A stretch of DNA of 64,000 bases from Ectothiorhodospira lacustris. Lineage in GTDB: Bacteria > Pseudomonadota > Gammaproteobacteria > Ectothiorhodospirales > Ectothiorhodospiraceae. Numbering within the stretch: the stretch's first letter is position 1; every line of letters starts with the position of its first letter. The translations under genes were made by a program, and so were the position numbers. Below are positions 46,868 to 51,158 of the stretch, in pieces. Where the stretch lies: NCBI RefSeq assembly GCF_022227845.1, contig NZ_JAJNQN010000017.1, positions 1-64,000 of the forward strand. The letters are read 5' to 3'. Below the pieces are notes generated by a model. That model made no database searches. It saw only the letters and a list, made by a program, of their open reading frames with translations, and had not been told where the DNA came from.

Positions 46868-48310
46868 ATGAGCAAGGGTGTATCCGGTGCTTTCATGGGA
46901 CTGCTCGGCCGGTTCGGTACCAAGATCCTGCCGTTTGCCGATGCGGCCACCAAGGATTTGCCGCTGCCGCGATTGTTGCGCCTGGCGCTGTTTCAGGTGG
47001 CCGTGGCCATGTCCATGGTCCTGCTTACCGGGACCCTGAACCGGGTCATGGTGGTGGAGCAGGGGGTCTCGGCCTGGATCGTGGCCCTGATGGTGTCGCT
47101 GCCCCTGCTGTTTGCCCCCTTGCGGGCACTGATGGGGCATCGATCGGACAATCACCGGTCCGCCTTCGGCTGGCGGCGGGTACCCTACCTATGGATGGGG
47201 ACGCTGCTGCAGTTCAGTGGTCTGGCCATCATGCCCTTTGCTCTGTTGGTGCTGTCGGACGGTAGCGGGCCGGCCTTTCTCGGTCCGCTGGCGGCTGCCA
47301 TTGCCTTCCTGCTGGTGGGGGCGGGCATGCACATGACCCAGACCGCGGGCCTGGCCCTGGCCACGGATCTGGCCGCTCCCGAACAGCGTCCTCGTGTCGT
47401 GGCCCTGCTGTACGTGGTGCTGTTGCTGGGCATGGTGCTTGCGTCCTCCATCTTTGGTTTCGTGCTGACCGACTACACGCCGGGACGACTGATCGAGGTG
47501 CTGCAGGGGGTGGCCGTACTGACCATCCTGCTGAACCTGGCGGCCCTGTGGAAGCAGGAGGCGATCAATCAGCAGCGTGCCAAGGCCCGGCACGAACCAA
47601 GTGTCCCCTTCATGGAAGCCTGGCGATCCTTCAGCGGCATCGGCCATATTCGTCGCTTGCTGGTGGTGATCGCCCTGGGAACCGCCGGATTCAATATGCA
47701 GGACATCCTGCTGGAACCCTATGGTGGTGAAATTCTGGGCATGTCGGTGGCAGCCACCACCACACTGACCGCCACCTGGGCCACGGGTATGTTGATTGCC
47801 TTTGCCCTGGCGGCAAGACTGCTGACCCGTGGCGCCAACTGCTACCGGATTGCCGCCACGGGGGCTGGTGTTGGGGTCCTGGCCTTCATCGTGGTCGTGA
47901 TCGCGGTGCCGATGGATTCCACCATCGTCTTTCGTTGCGGCGCTTTCCTGATCGGTTTTGGTGGCGGCCTGTTTGCGGTGTCCACCCTGCTGGCAATGAT
48001 GGGCTTTGCCCAAAATGAGCAGAGCGGCATGGCTGTGGGTGCCTGGGGCGCGGTGCAGGCGACCGCCGCCGGGGGTGCCATCTTCCTGGGCGGTGCCATT
48101 CGCGACATTGTGGGCTGGATAACCGGCAGTGGCTGGCTGGGAGAGGCCTTGACCGCGCCGGCCACCGGATATCTGGCGGTGTACTACCTGGAGATTGTCC
48201 TGCTGCTGGCTGTACTGGTGGTGATGATCCCATTGCTGCGTGCCAGGGAAGAACCACCTGCTGCCGGCCCGCAGGGCAAGTTCGGCATGACTGACTTCCC
48301 GACCGTCTGA
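46868..48310 (+). CDS. pucC: PucC/LhaA-family light-harvesting assembly transporter
   Basis: A 480-residue, 12-helix member of the BCD (bacteriochlorophyll delivery) MFS family, needed to assemble antenna complexes. Helical segments are seen throughout; MLLTGTLNRVMVVE-like and FGWRRVPYLWMGTLLQFSG segments near residues 55-120 are typical of PucC, LhaA and BchP-linked ORFs. Whether it serves LH1 (LhaA) or LH2 (PucC) cannot be settled; adjacent antenna genes favour a direct role with them. GGGGAG precedes the ATG. It starts 46 bases after bchL and is probably cotranscribed. Confidence 0.9.
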   Translation: MSKGVSGAFMGLLGRFGTKILPFADAATKDLPLPRLLRLALFQVAVAMSMVLLTGTLNRVMVVEQGVSAWIVALMVSLPLLFAPLRALMGHRSDNHRSAFGWRRVPYLWMGTLLQFSGLAIMPFALLVLSDGSGPAFLGPLAAAIAFLLVGAGMHMTQTAGLALATDLAAPEQRPRVVALLYVVLLLGMVLASSIFGFVLTDYTPGRLIEVLQGVAVLTILLNLAALWKQEAINQQRAKARHEPSVPFMEAWRSFSGIGHIRRLLVVIALGTAGFNMQDILLEPYGGEILGMSVAATTTLTATWATGMLIAFALAARLLTRGANCYRIAATGAGVGVLAFIVVVIAVPMDSTIVFRCGAFLIGFGGGLFAVSTLLAMMGFAQNEQSGMAVGAWGAVQATAAGGAIFLGGAIRDIVGWITGSGWLGEALTAPATGYLAVYYLEIVLLLAVLVVMIPLLRAREEPPAAGPQGKFGMTDFPTV

Positions 48311-48313
48311 AAG

Positions 48314-48348
48314 CCCTTCTTCCCCGGTGTTTGGCCGGGGAAGAAGGG
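48314..48348 (+). terminator. Long perfect hairpin after pucC
   Basis: CCCTTCTTCCCCGG (48314-48327) pairs perfectly with CCGGGGAAGAAGGG (48335-48348) around TGTTTGG. No T run follows, so it may stop transcription poorly and rather protect the 3' end of the bchL-pucC message. Confidence 0.65.
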
Positions 48349-48364
48349 GGGCGGGATGAAAAAC

Positions 48365-48378
48365 TTGACCCCGGTCAA
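48365..48378. promoter_or_regulatory. Palindrome TTGACC-CC-GGTCAA, possible operator
   Basis: Six-base perfect arms with a two-base centre lie about 40 bases upstream of the -35 of antenna promoter 1. No matching copy was seen at promoter 2. No regulator can be named. Confidence 0.35.
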
Positions 48379-48418
48379 CAGCAGTGCCGCATTCGCCTCG
48401 AAAGCATGTTCTCCCCCG

Positions 48419-48450
48419 TTGACACGGAAACGTGTCAGCGTAGACTTACA
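48419..48450 (+). promoter_or_regulatory. Antenna promoter 1 with overlapping CrtJ/PpsR-like box
   Basis: TTGACA (48419-48424), 16 bases, TAGACT (48441-48446). A palindrome TGACACG-GAAA-CGTGTCA (48420-48437) fills the -35 and spacer. TGT-N12-ACA (48433-48450) covers the -10, the form of site bound by CrtJ/PpsR aerobic repressors of photosynthesis genes. The same arrangement recurs at promoter 2. The leader to beta 1 is about 110 bases. Confidence 0.7.
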
Positions 48451-48561
48451 GCCAGACTCAAGGCAGGGGATTGAAGCCCGAATTCAGGGCAACGAAGCGA
48501 ATACCGCTGCTGGAGTCGATGAATTCGAGTAGTCACAGCAAACCCTATGGAGGGTCTTTGA

Positions 48562-48711
48562 ATGTCCGACGAATACGTGCAGAGCATTTCCGGTCTTACC
48601 GAAGAGCAGGCCAAGGAATTCCACGAGCAGTTCAAGACCACCTTCACCGTGTTCATGGCGCTTGCCGCTGCTGCTCACTTCCTCGTCTACGTGTGGAGAC
48701 CGTTCTACTAA
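48562..48711 (+). CDS. Light-harvesting complex beta polypeptide 1
   Basis: A 49-residue antenna beta chain. The polar N terminus has SGLTEEQAKEFHEQFKTTF with the conserved His, one membrane helix follows, and the bacteriochlorophyll-ligand His is in AAAAHFLVYVWRPFY. The WRPF end resembles LH1 and some LH2 beta chains, so LH1 versus LH2 is left open. GGAGGGTC lies ahead of the ATG. It is too short for ordinary gene callers. Beta precedes alpha here, the usual order. There is no pufL or pufM next to it, which argues for an accessory (puc-like) operon. Confidence 0.93.
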   Translation: MSDEYVQSISGLTEEQAKEFHEQFKTTFTVFMALAAAAHFLVYVWRPFY

Positions 48712-48788
48712 GAACGGCACCACTGCACGGTCATCCCGTGCGACTTTGACTGAGCTTCAGTTCGAAAATAATTGACAGGGTGATTCCA

Positions 48789-48995
48789 ATGAGCGAATAC
48801 AGAGCAAAGCGGCCGAGCAATCCTTCCGACGACTGGAAGCTGTGGCTGGTGGTCAACCCCGGCACTTGGCTGATGCCGATCCTGATGGCTGTTCTGGTGG
48901 TGGCCTTGGCTGTGCACGCTTTCGTGTATGCCAACGACAGCTACAACCCGCTGCGCGGCGATGTGACCGCTGTGCAGGCTGAGGAAGCTGCCTGA
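48789..48995 (+). CDS. Light-harvesting complex alpha polypeptide 1
   Basis: A 68-residue antenna alpha chain. A charged N-terminal extension (MSEYRAKRPSNPSDDW) precedes KLWLVVNPGTWLMP, the LH2-like VVNP interface motif. The helix contains the ligand His in ALAVHAFVYAND and is followed by a polar acidic tail. ATG 48789 is chosen over an upstream GTG/ATG because the same MSEYR start recurs in alpha 2. It lies 77 bases after beta 1 and ahead of a strong terminator. Confidence 0.92.
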   Translation: MSEYRAKRPSNPSDDWKLWLVVNPGTWLMPILMAVLVVALAVHAFVYANDSYNPLRGDVTAVQAEEAA

Positions 48996-49036
48996 GTCGC
49001 TGATTCCTTAATCAGCGCTTCAGTGTAATTATAAAA

Positions 49037-49069
49037 ACGGCCGGCGAGTTATCGCCGGCCGTTTTTTTT
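49037..49069 (+). terminator. Strong terminator after antenna operon 1
   Basis: ACGGCCGGCGA-GTTA-TCGCCGGCCGT is followed by eight T. An A run on the 5' side lets it work on the minus strand too. It separates the two antenna operons. Confidence 0.95.
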
Positions 49070-49157
49070 GTCGCCAAGTTTTGTATGGATGAGCATGATT
49101 GCTTGAGCTTTCAGGCGAAGGAATGGTGAGTTTTTCCCGGCTTTAATGCGTGCGCCG

Positions 49158-49262
49158 TGCAAGCCCCGGTTCTGCGCTGTCAATGTTCCCCCTGGCCATG
49201 CTTCTGATGGAGCCTGAGAGAGGCTTCCAGAAGCTTGCAGAACCATCCCCGGGGGCTTTGCA
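49158..49262. other. Two-part inverted repeat; possible structured RNA
   Basis: In the ~740-base gap between antenna operons, TGCAAGCCCC-GGTTCTGC (49158-49175) pairs with GCAGAACC (49237-49244) and GGGGGCTTTGCA (49251-49262). Inside, GCTTCTG-AT-GGAGCC (49200-49214) pairs with GGCTTC-CAGAAGC (49222-49234) around TGAGAGA. Together this is a ~105-nt elongated fold. Strand, promoter and function are unknown. It could be a regulatory RNA or the end of a vanished mobile element. The rest of 49070-49470 holds no convincing gene. Confidence 0.5.
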
Positions 49263-49471
49263 TGTCGTGCTGAAAACTGCGTGGCGGAGGTGCGTTGATG
49301 TCGTCGAACAGCCCTTCTTCGAGAAACTGATCTGCGTCAGTAAAAGACCCGCCCCGTGTTATCGGCAGCCCTCTGGAAGTTAGATTTCCGATTATGTAAC
49401 TTCATGTTTTTAAATGGTAATAATGAGTTTTTCGGGCTTGTGGACGGGGTTTTCGGGGTTGGTAGGTTGCC

Positions 49472-49503
49472 TTGACATTTAGGCCTGTCAACGTAGACTT
49501 ACA
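49472..49503 (+). promoter_or_regulatory. Antenna promoter 2 with overlapping CrtJ/PpsR-like box
   Basis: TTGACA (49472-49477), 16 bases, TAGACT (49494-49499), identical hexamers and spacing to promoter 1. TTGACA-N8-TGTCAA forms a palindrome over -35 and spacer, and TGT-N12-ACA (49486-49503) covers the -10. Shared core with promoter 1 is TGTCARCGTAGACTTACA. The leader to alpha 2 is about 235 bases and contains a beta-gene relic. Confidence 0.7.
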
Positions 49504-49619
49504 ACCATGCTGCAACGGTATCCGACGCCTTTGATTGTCCTTCGGCTGGGGTTGCAGAATATAAAACCCGATCAGGGAGCTTTCGGTCCAAGTGCTTTAT
49601 AAAGTAAAGAACAGGGCAT

Positions 49620-49707
49620 GAAGACCGAATGATTTAAGAGCACTTTGAGACAACCTTAACCGTTTTATGTTGGCGGTGGTTGCAAACATCCTGGCCATCC
49701 GTGATGG
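49620..49707 (+). pseudogene. Relic of a light-harvesting beta gene
   Basis: From 49638, GAG CAC TTT GAG ACA ACC matches the beta codons for EQFKTT. About 23 of 30 bases match before a one-base deletion near 49661-49666, and after it the frame reads M-L-A-V-V-A-N-I-L-A-I against the functional M-A-L-A-A-A-A-H-F-L-V-Y. The ligand His codon CAC has become AAC (Asn), an in-frame TAA stands at 49635-49637, and no WRPFY end remains. It lies exactly where a beta gene should precede alpha 2. It cannot make antenna protein. Confidence 0.65.
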
Positions 49708-49737
49708 TCAAGGTTATAAACCAAGAGGGCAATATCA

Positions 49738-49938
49738 ATGAGTGAATACAGACCGAGCAAGCCGAGCAACCCCAGAGACGATTGGAAGCTGTGGCTGGTG
49801 GTTAACCCCGGCACCTGGCTGATGCCCATTCTGATGGCTGTTCTCGTCGTGGCTCTGGCCGTGCACGCCTTTGTGTATGCCAACGACAACTACAACCCGC
49901 TGACCTTCGACGCCAGCGCCGTTGAAGCTTCTGAGTAA
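49738..49938 (+). CDS. Light-harvesting complex alpha polypeptide 2
   Basis: A 66-residue alpha chain, nearly identical to alpha 1 through the helix (DDWKLWLVVNPGTWLMP; ligand His in ALAVHAFVYAND) and different mainly in the polar tail (TFDASAVEASE). GAGGGC lies before the ATG. It precedes beta 2 by 15 bases, an alpha-beta order opposite to operon 1 and to most puf/puc operons. Confidence 0.92.
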   Translation: MSEYRPSKPSNPRDDWKLWLVVNPGTWLMPILMAVLVVALAVHAFVYANDNYNPLTFDASAVEASE

Positions 49939-49953
49939 CGGAGAGAATAGACC

Positions 49954-50094
49954 ATGAATGACAATAGCATCTCGGGCCTGAGCGAAGAACAAGCCAAGGA
50001 ATTCCACGAGCAGTTCAAGACCACCTTCACCGTGTTCATGGTGATCGCTGCTGCTGCGCACTTCCTGGTGTTCCTGTGGAGACCCTTCTACTAA
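49954..50094 (+). CDS. Light-harvesting complex beta polypeptide 2
   Basis: A 46-residue beta chain: MNDNSISGLSEEQAKEF, then the helix with ligand His in AAAAHFLVFLWRPFY. It differs from beta 1 by a shorter N terminus and a few helix residues (VI for AL, FL for YV), so the two rings could differ spectrally. ACGGAGAG precedes the ATG. A large hairpin terminator follows. Confidence 0.93.
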   Translation: MNDNSISGLSEEQAKEFHEQFKTTFTVFMVIAAAAHFLVFLWRPFY

Positions 50095-50127
50095 GAAGGT
50101 CTTGGCAGTCGCTGTATTAGCAGTGCA

Positions 50128-50224
50128 GGTAGAGGTAGCTTGAAAGACTCTGAAAGTGTGCGCATCGTGACTTTGCAGAGGCCGACGCCACACGAGTTTT
50201 CAGGCTCCTCTACCTTCCTTTTTT
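50128..50224 (+). terminator. Extended hairpin terminator after antenna operon 2
   Basis: GGTAGAGG (50128-50135) pairs with CCTCTACC (50207-50214), with further pairing inside, followed by TTCCTTTTTT. The ~70-base insert makes it a structured 3' end rather than a simple terminator. The remaining gap to 50375 shows no gene. Confidence 0.65.
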
Positions 50225-50375
50225 AAGGCGTTCTAAATTGAATTGATCCCAGGGCAGGTTGCGGATTGATTCGGTCTCCAGCCCATTAGCCGCCCTTTTC
50301 TTGAGCCACTATCCTTCAGCTTCATCCTCCCCCGGATTCGGCCTCCGAGTCCATGAGGCCCCCGTTATTCGGCTG

Positions 50376-51158
50376 CTATTGCCCGGGAGGATAGAGCCCT
50401 TTGTGGCCGGCACCATTCTGGTGAACCCTCTCGCGCTCCATGAGCAGCAAGGCCCTCAGCAGCGTCTGTTCATCCGTCTGTGAAAGGTCATAAAAACGCC
50501 CGCCGATCAGTCTTTCACCGGTTTCCCTATCGTCGGACGCAAAGCGTATCTGAATGCCGCATTCAATAGGCTCGTTGCCGGAGAGGACGAGTTTGCTGAG
50601 TGTCAGCAGGTCTCTGGCATGGATAGGGGTTTTGATCGGGAAAGCGGCGCGAAGTCCCCCCAGCGATATGTCCGCGAGGTTGCCGTTGAAGTGACGCCCG
50701 TCCCTGTCTACCAGGGTCACAGGCGTACCGAGGGCATCATCCACCGGGGCACGGAAATGCGCGCGTTTCTGCTCGCTGTCCAGTTCGGCCGGCATGGAGA
50801 CGACGTAGAAGGCTTCGCCATCGTGCTCTCCGGAGTGAAGGACTTCCGCACGGAAGTGCAGGCAGGATGCGTTGAGTACCGCGTACACATGGACCTGCTG
50901 CCCGGCCGCCATGCGTAAATTACCCTGATAAGGACTCAACTCGCTCAGGAACAGCCATCCGCGGGATGGGTCCATGCGATTCAGGGTGCTGTGGAAGAAT
51001 TCCTGATCCTGGCCGAAACGGATGCTGATGGAGGCGCGGCGGGCCTCCAGATCTCTGAGCAGGGCATTGATGCGTTCCTGCCTCAAGATACGGTCACCCG
51101 GGTGTCCCGGCGGAGGGGTACGCACGGTCGTCTGCGTCTGATTGGTGGGCTGGTTCAT
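50376..51158 (-). CDS. ycgR: PilZ-domain flagellar brake protein (YcgR type)
   Basis: YcgR-type proteins bind cyclic di-GMP and slow the flagellar motor. The 260-residue protein has an N-terminal YcgR domain (about 25-125) and a PilZ domain with the RxxxR site in KRAHFRAPV (about residue 131-139) and DISLGG (about 165-170), the two c-di-GMP-binding motifs. It lies downstream of flgA-flgM-flgN on the same strand, and a diguanylate cyclase is encoded at 37348. Confidence 0.9.
   Translation of the reverse strand: MNQPTNQTQTTVRTPPPGHPGDRILRQERINALLRDLEARRASISIRFGQDQEFFHSTLNRMDPSRGWLFLSELSPYQGNLRMAAGQQVHVYAVLNASCLHFRAEVLHSGEHDGEAFYVVSMPAELDSEQKRAHFRAPVDDALGTPVTLVDRDGRHFNGNLADISLGGLRAAFPIKTPIHARDLLTLSKLVLSGNEPIECGIQIRFASDDRETGERLIGGRFYDLSQTDEQTLLRALLLMERERVHQNGAGHKGLYPPGQ

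Follow-up and report, generated by a model that had tools for sequence, protein, structure and literature searches.

A decayed light-harvesting β gene in the predicted structured leader of an α-β antenna operon of Ectothiorhodospira lacustris

The DNA immediately upstream of the second of two neighbouring light-harvesting antenna operons of Ectothiorhodospira lacustris raises the question of whether it once encoded a further antenna protein and, if so, what it may be doing now. The stretch analyzed here, referred to as the window, comprises 64,000 nucleotides (positions 1 to 64,000 of the forward strand of contig NZ_JAJNQN010000017.1, assembly GCF_022227845.1), and holds operon 1, β1-α1 (48562-48995), and operon 2, α2-β2 (49738-50094), both adjoining a transporter gene that we take to be PucC-like. 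A sequence-only reading had proposed positions 49620-49707 as an unannotated relic of a β gene. It is here considered near certain that positions 49607-49698 are the relic of a β gene of the light-harvesting complex 2 (LH2) type (PF00556 family), and the best explanation as a whole, with an estimated probability of about 0.75, is that this β fossil lies in a structured leader and that parts of it have possibly been retained for RNA structure. The relic is defined by the following positions:

49607-49698, plus strand: decayed LH2-type β gene (pseudogene remnant), located by a β DNA profile, shuffles and local alignment score
49635-49637, plus strand: in-frame TAA immediately 5′ of the core, read in the sequence
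49638-49667, plus strand: best-kept core of the relic, 23 of 30 bases as in the codons for EQFKTTFTVF

Local alignment of positions 49600-49740 yielded a score of 47 with β1 and also with β2, while the best of 5000 dinucleotide shuffles reached 28 and 32, respectively, and the best of 1772 other window stretches of the same size (overlapping, both strands) 32 and 36. Thus, the alignment to β1 and β2 that the sequence-only reading had set as its test does outscore shuffled sequence, 47 versus 32 at best. A DNA profile built from 34 Ectothiorhodospira β genes matched 49607-49698 with 23.1 bits and an E-value of 1.8e-6 over the 64 kb on both strands, the next non-gene match in the window having an E-value of 0.46. 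None of 5000 shuffled leaders reached these 23.1 bits, the best of them scoring 7.9. This match also includes 49607-49620, corresponding to the EEQAK codons, and the relic aligns in order with profile positions 32-120 of 141. When all 53 collected β genes were used for the profile, 49626-49699 was found with an E-value of 1.3e-5, the next match being at 0.63.

The earlier count of about 23 β-like bases out of 30 from position 49638 turns out to be exact, with seven bases differing from the codons for EQFKTTFTVF in β1 and likewise in β2. Six of these seven mismatches fall at third codon positions (P 0.007), a bias that fits descent from a coding gene, and the core would read EHFETTLTVL. Past a one-base deletion, the frame from ATG 49667 continues as M-L-A-V-V-A-N-I-L-A-I, with AAC at the codon aligned with that of the bacteriochlorophyll-ligand His (CAC); frame reading and alignment agree here with what had been described. 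The relic resembles most the LH2-type β genes of the genus, 34 of the 35 scoring between 33 and 55 against it (27 for locus L059); scores between 16 and 30 were obtained for the 18 β genes of light-harvesting complex 1 (LH1) type or from outgroups, except for a value of 42 for L066. The identity with β1 amounts to 74% (69 of 93 aligned pairs) in an alignment chosen for the window. The identity of the relic as read from sequence is supported by its score, by its collinearity with β genes and by the codon-phase bias, and also by its presence in a sister strain, described below.

Considering that (i) an in-frame TAA stands at 49635-49637 and (ii) one base is lost before 49667, β cannot be produced from the relic. 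Plus-strand frames of at least 20 residues over it are just one of 24 residues (49667-49741) and one of 21, and a genome-wide family search returned 12 PF00556 antenna genes, the relic not being one of them. The possibility of a β gene that still codes was rejected on the in-frame stop and the short frames. Separately, frames of 44-49 residues ending on the TGA that overlaps the α2 ATG were noted in leaders L043, L046 and L035.

The relic sits between P2, a σ70-like site at 49472-49499, and the α2 start, and is thus expected within the transcribed α2-β2 leader; it is probably part of the untranslated leader RNA. Its placement between promoter and α2, as well as two hairpins over it, are additions to the sequence-only reading. 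The elements concerned are:

49472-49503, plus strand: promoter P2 of the α2-β2 operon, TTGACA-16-TAGACT at 49472-49499 overlapped by TGT-N12-ACA at 49486-49503
49504-49737, plus strand: putative 5′ leader of the α2-β2 mRNA, placed between P2 and the α2 ATG, with a presumed start site
49650-49683, plus strand: leader hairpin A, made of relic sequence
49690-49713, plus strand: stem-loop B, just 5′ of the ribosome site
49723-49730, plus strand: α2 ribosome-binding region AAGAGGGC, its AGAGG invariant in 24 aligned leaders

TTGACA followed by TAGACT precedes α in 24 of 27 genus loci (not in L049, L052 and L059), and TGT-N12-ACA occurs at the same position, overlapping the -10 region, in 17 of the 27; the latter motif presumably resembles a PpsR/CrtJ site. 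A promoter scan found three promoter-like sites versus 1.1 expected by chance. Regarding the limits of the relic, the interval 49620-49707 first proposed is upheld by the profile up to 49698, while from 49690 onwards it also belongs to stem-loop B. Its last 18 bases are therefore not evidence for β by themselves, since they also form a stem-loop of a type present before the majority of the α-β operons tested.

Seven of 27 leaders, each of them one of the ten PucC-linked ones, carry the motif of hairpin A 86-91 nucleotides 5′ of the α ATG. Folding z-scores in these seven range from -2.6 to -4.9, values inflated by the selection of the segments through their complementary motif. The outer pair is G-C in two of them, U-A in three (two of which are haloalkaliphila-like and close kin) and an A·C mismatch in the window and in E. 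shaposhnikovii beta1 (L038), and the inner arms differ among the seven. Stem-loop B ends 9 nucleotides before AGAGG, closing pairs counted. Of 24 α-β leaders, 20 contain a stem of at least seven pairs, one mismatch allowed, that ends 7-12 nucleotides before AGAGG and whose arms vary widely in sequence; L055, L061, L063 and L026 are without it. Individually, 16 of the 24 leaders fall below 0.05 relative to shuffles that preserve base composition alone, and 13 leaders, one per group, together give a Fisher P of 1e-6 for a test devised after the folds had been seen; the near-duplicate leaders L038, L051 and L035 had been removed from the count. Examples of the stem-loop B type are found in the window (49690-49713), L005, L044 and L058. 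As for a described RNA family, Rfam gave no match at gathering score when window positions 48300-50400 were searched, and over the window copy of the leader even an E-value limit of 1 brought up none; this candidate was rejected. The predicted hairpins may serve a function in the leader.

Comparison with relatives is compatible with some upkeep of the leader sequence, without proving it. Over 49607-49688 the window and E. shaposhnikovii beta1 agree at 69 of 82 positions (84%), versus 64% at 328 four-fold degenerate sites (binomial P 5e-5, Fisher 2e-4), the latter being pooled from two neighbouring genes, the pucC-like one (partial in L038, L037 and L042) and a PilZ gene (L038 and L042 only). 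For the α1-P2 spacer, these alignments give an identity of 43-50%, gaps being scored as differences.

Among the 27 genus leaders, a set that left out L048, L049, L052, L056 and L059 as near-duplicates or for lacking standard promoter hexamers, three match the β profile: that of the window, that of E. shaposhnikovii beta1 (15.5 bits) and that of E. magna (5.5 bits). Their scores were reached by 0, 0 and 3 of 5000 shuffled leaders, respectively, making the E. magna match a weak one. E. shaposhnikovii strain DSM 243 shares the window base, unlike beta1 and E. magna, at four columns when aligned with β1 or five with β2, and these shared bases are β-like at 4 of 4 or 4 of 5; the alignment behind this tally is biased towards the window, as at 12 columns where window and beta1 differ β1 is matched by the window nine times and by beta1 once. 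Alignment with the window extends from 49651 (E. marina leaders) or 49675 (E. haloalkaliphila leaders) up to the α start, and that part of the leader hence predates the shaposhnikovii-magna clade. At the PucC-linked place, the β1-α1 operon is present in the window, beta1, DSM 243 and E. magna, and α-β stands alone in E. marina, E. haloalkaliphila, E. mobilis and G005. The matched α is followed by β in all 27 fetched Ectothiorhodospira loci, a count in which α2-like genes are favoured by the use of α2 as locus query. Outside the genus, β lies directly 5′ of the matched α in six of seven loci, the exception being L067, where β precedes a second α.

When 31 genus loci were searched for further relics with α and β profiles, together with L060, L065 and the window, no other plausible one appeared among matches with E-values from 1e-15 to 0.5. 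The α profile listed a cut α gene (L060 1-72) and 11 minus-strand matches, ten of them within known α genes and one in L054 (E 0.42); the matches of the β profile were a known gene of L065, the relic of the window and L038. In scoring against 1000 shuffles, which also took in the five leaders left out above, single low counts arose for L050 (9), L051 (37), L042 (41) and L043 (40), none of which survives the number of tests, and the matches in L050 and L051 sit elsewhere in the leader. Support in α and β gene trees is too weak to order events. As a further observation on leaders, the C12-type ones of L039 and L040 match L041 and the genome's own C12, with a difference of about 80 bases between promoter and start.

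According to the proposed mechanism, 49607-49698 would be the remnant of an LH2-type β gene formerly 5′ of α2, which would have acquired a stop and a frameshift and ceased making β. Given the observed gene order and promoter-like site, the remnant would be transcribed within the α2-β2 leader, where hairpin A and the left arm of stem-loop B would be built from parts of it. These hairpins would probably protect the mRNA towards its 5′ end or around the α2 ribosome site. In the history considered most likely, a β-α-β unit lost its first β, and this would have led to the α-β order usual in the genus.

Several observations weigh against this explanation. Three of the six third-position differences in the core change the residue. 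No β-profile match is found in 24 of the 27 genus leaders; such a match is lacking in E. shaposhnikovii DSM 243 (where both operons are also present), E. marina, E. haloalkaliphila, E. mobilis and operons C12 and C49 of this genome. An intact β before α2 is kept in none of nine genus relatives. With E. magna there is a weak excess of identity over 49607-49688 (57/82 versus 59% of 217 four-fold sites; P 0.04, Fisher 0.07), and with DSM 243 there is none (48/82 versus 53% of 313; P 0.2). Hairpin A is missing from three of the ten PucC-linked leaders, both from E. mobilis and that of G005. RNAalifold returned no consensus pairs on an alignment of 24 leaders, a set slightly different from that of the stem test, and a weak result on the seven hairpin A leaders, with one doubly changed pair out of 16. 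Folding of the last 62 nucleotides beats shuffles at the 5% level in just 3 of 27 leaders, which is why the stem test was adopted. Regarding ancestry, the β-α-β history that the sequence-only reading had drawn for operon 2 is favoured by the β-first loci outside the genus and opposed by the scarcity of the relic (3 of 27 leaders) and of intact copies within it, so that it stays plausible on gene order and comparison of loci.

The remnant may alternatively be an inert pseudogene decaying in the leader, with hairpin A incidental and any leader function residing in stem-loop B alone. Such decay would account for most tested leaders lacking the relic and yet having stem-loop B, for hairpin A being absent from E. 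mobilis and G005, and for the missing excess in DSM 243; moreover, the 74% identity to β1 is compatible with neutral decay since approximately the origin of the clade, as estimated from gene distances. It leaves unaccounted for hairpin A recurring at the same place in seven PucC-linked leaders despite varied inner arms and a G-C or U-A outer pair, and an identity with L038 above the four-fold-site level, and overall it is a serious alternative, albeit short of probable. Equally tentative is the stronger claim that the dead β now serves as a functional element of the α2-β2 leader, its codons becoming the arms of hairpin A and being retained for structure, and that the window shows the step from β-α-β to α-β. 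Insertion of a partial β copy into the leader by mispaired recombination within the shaposhnikovii-magna clade, with no full β-α-β unit ever having existed here, would agree with the confinement of the relic to this clade, in which the β1-α1 operon is likewise found at this locus, and with the lack of relatives bearing an intact β there. It appears unlikely, given that the β match covers most of the gene in order and that the leader part shared with E. marina and E. haloalkaliphila is older than the clade.

Much less probable is a coupled leader peptide, in which the ATG at 49667, the old β Met, would open the 24-residue frame whose TGA overlaps the α2 ATG, its translation feeding ribosomes to α2. 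The frame 49667-49741 does exist, and six of the seven hairpin A leaders have one of 21-49 residues, with a start codon, ending on the same TGA; nonetheless, every α gene beginning with ATGA supplies this TGA, such a frame is missing from DSM 243, the peptides of window and E. magna differ in their first halves, seven more leaders without hairpin A have frames of 16-33 residues there, and no ribosome site is seen 5′ of 49667. Least credible of all is a chance likeness of a structured leader to β codons: leaders without β signal do have the same hairpins, but the shuffles, the window-wide profile E-value and the scores of other stretches led to its rejection, and the third-position bias as well as the expected place and strand of the match also stand against it. 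The explanation preferred thus remains a β fossil within a structured leader.

The antenna genes surrounding the relic, and the hairpin parting the two operons, are:

48562-48711, plus strand: β1 light-harvesting gene of the upstream β-α operon, with promoter P1 at 48419-48446
48789-48995, plus strand: α1 light-harvesting gene
49039-49069, plus strand: terminator-like hairpin and T run 3′ of α1, parting the two operons, read from the sequence and not listed by the pattern scan
49738-49938, plus strand: α2 light-harvesting gene
49954-50094, plus strand: β2 light-harvesting gene

Among the genomes compared, the source locus is closest to E. shaposhnikovii strains and E. magna. NCBIfam models label the window α and β proteins as LH1 subunits; they are here named LH2-type because the solved chain nearest to α2 is the α chain of a B-800/850 complex (8z4v, E 5.8e-39). 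For the transporter, NCBIfam gave a superfamily match alone, well under cut-off. On one contig of the same genome there are two LH1-type β-α pairs (C11 13327-13641 and 50416-50740), whose β proteins differ at 1 of 52 residues. As a separate observation, the β1 leader and gene (48465-48711) are 99% identical to those of E. shaposhnikovii beta1, with neighbouring four-fold sites at 64%; leader and gene identities are 96% and 98% for E. magna (four-fold sites 59%), and 72% and 98% for DSM 243 (53%). These values would reflect either strong constraint at the nucleotide level or gene conversion.

In Thiorhodospira sibirica and Marichromatium arrays (L065, L068, L069), β directly precedes α in head-to-tail repeats, a point in common with the ancestry proposed here. 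The β genes collected from them are open frames, unlike the relic, one of them with a changed C-terminus: in L027 849-1013, from a Thiorhodospira array, the β frame shifts near the C-terminus relative to its neighbours and reads YAIQALVLS for YAYKPWF, perhaps a gene starting to decay or a sequencing error. According to PMC5069747, the pucAc pseudogene of Rhodopseudomonas palustris is likewise an antenna gene of LH2 type that an indel has disrupted and that several strains retain; the present case differs from that account in being a β gene, with a part-length match of about 74%, 5′ of another α gene. Similarly, PMC10253847 describes antenna mRNA amounts affected by an RNA hairpin in Rhodobacter pufBA; that hairpin lies at the 3′ end, while those reported here lie 5′ of the first gene and are known from folding predictions. 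Among the titles and abstract openings searched in the open literature, none points to a β relic or such a leader in Ectothiorhodospira.

These results point to a stem-loop common to antenna leaders, the window copy of which gave no Rfam match, and the possible reuse of a protein gene as untranslated RNA can be put to the test on the relic. In the loci compared, gene order is β before α in Thiorhodospira and Marichromatium and, on the contrary, α then β in Ectothiorhodospira, the exception within the genus being the β1-α1 operon found at the same place in four genomes. A β fossil directly before α would be a concrete trace of how the order of antenna genes could have flipped, and may explain the reversed order.
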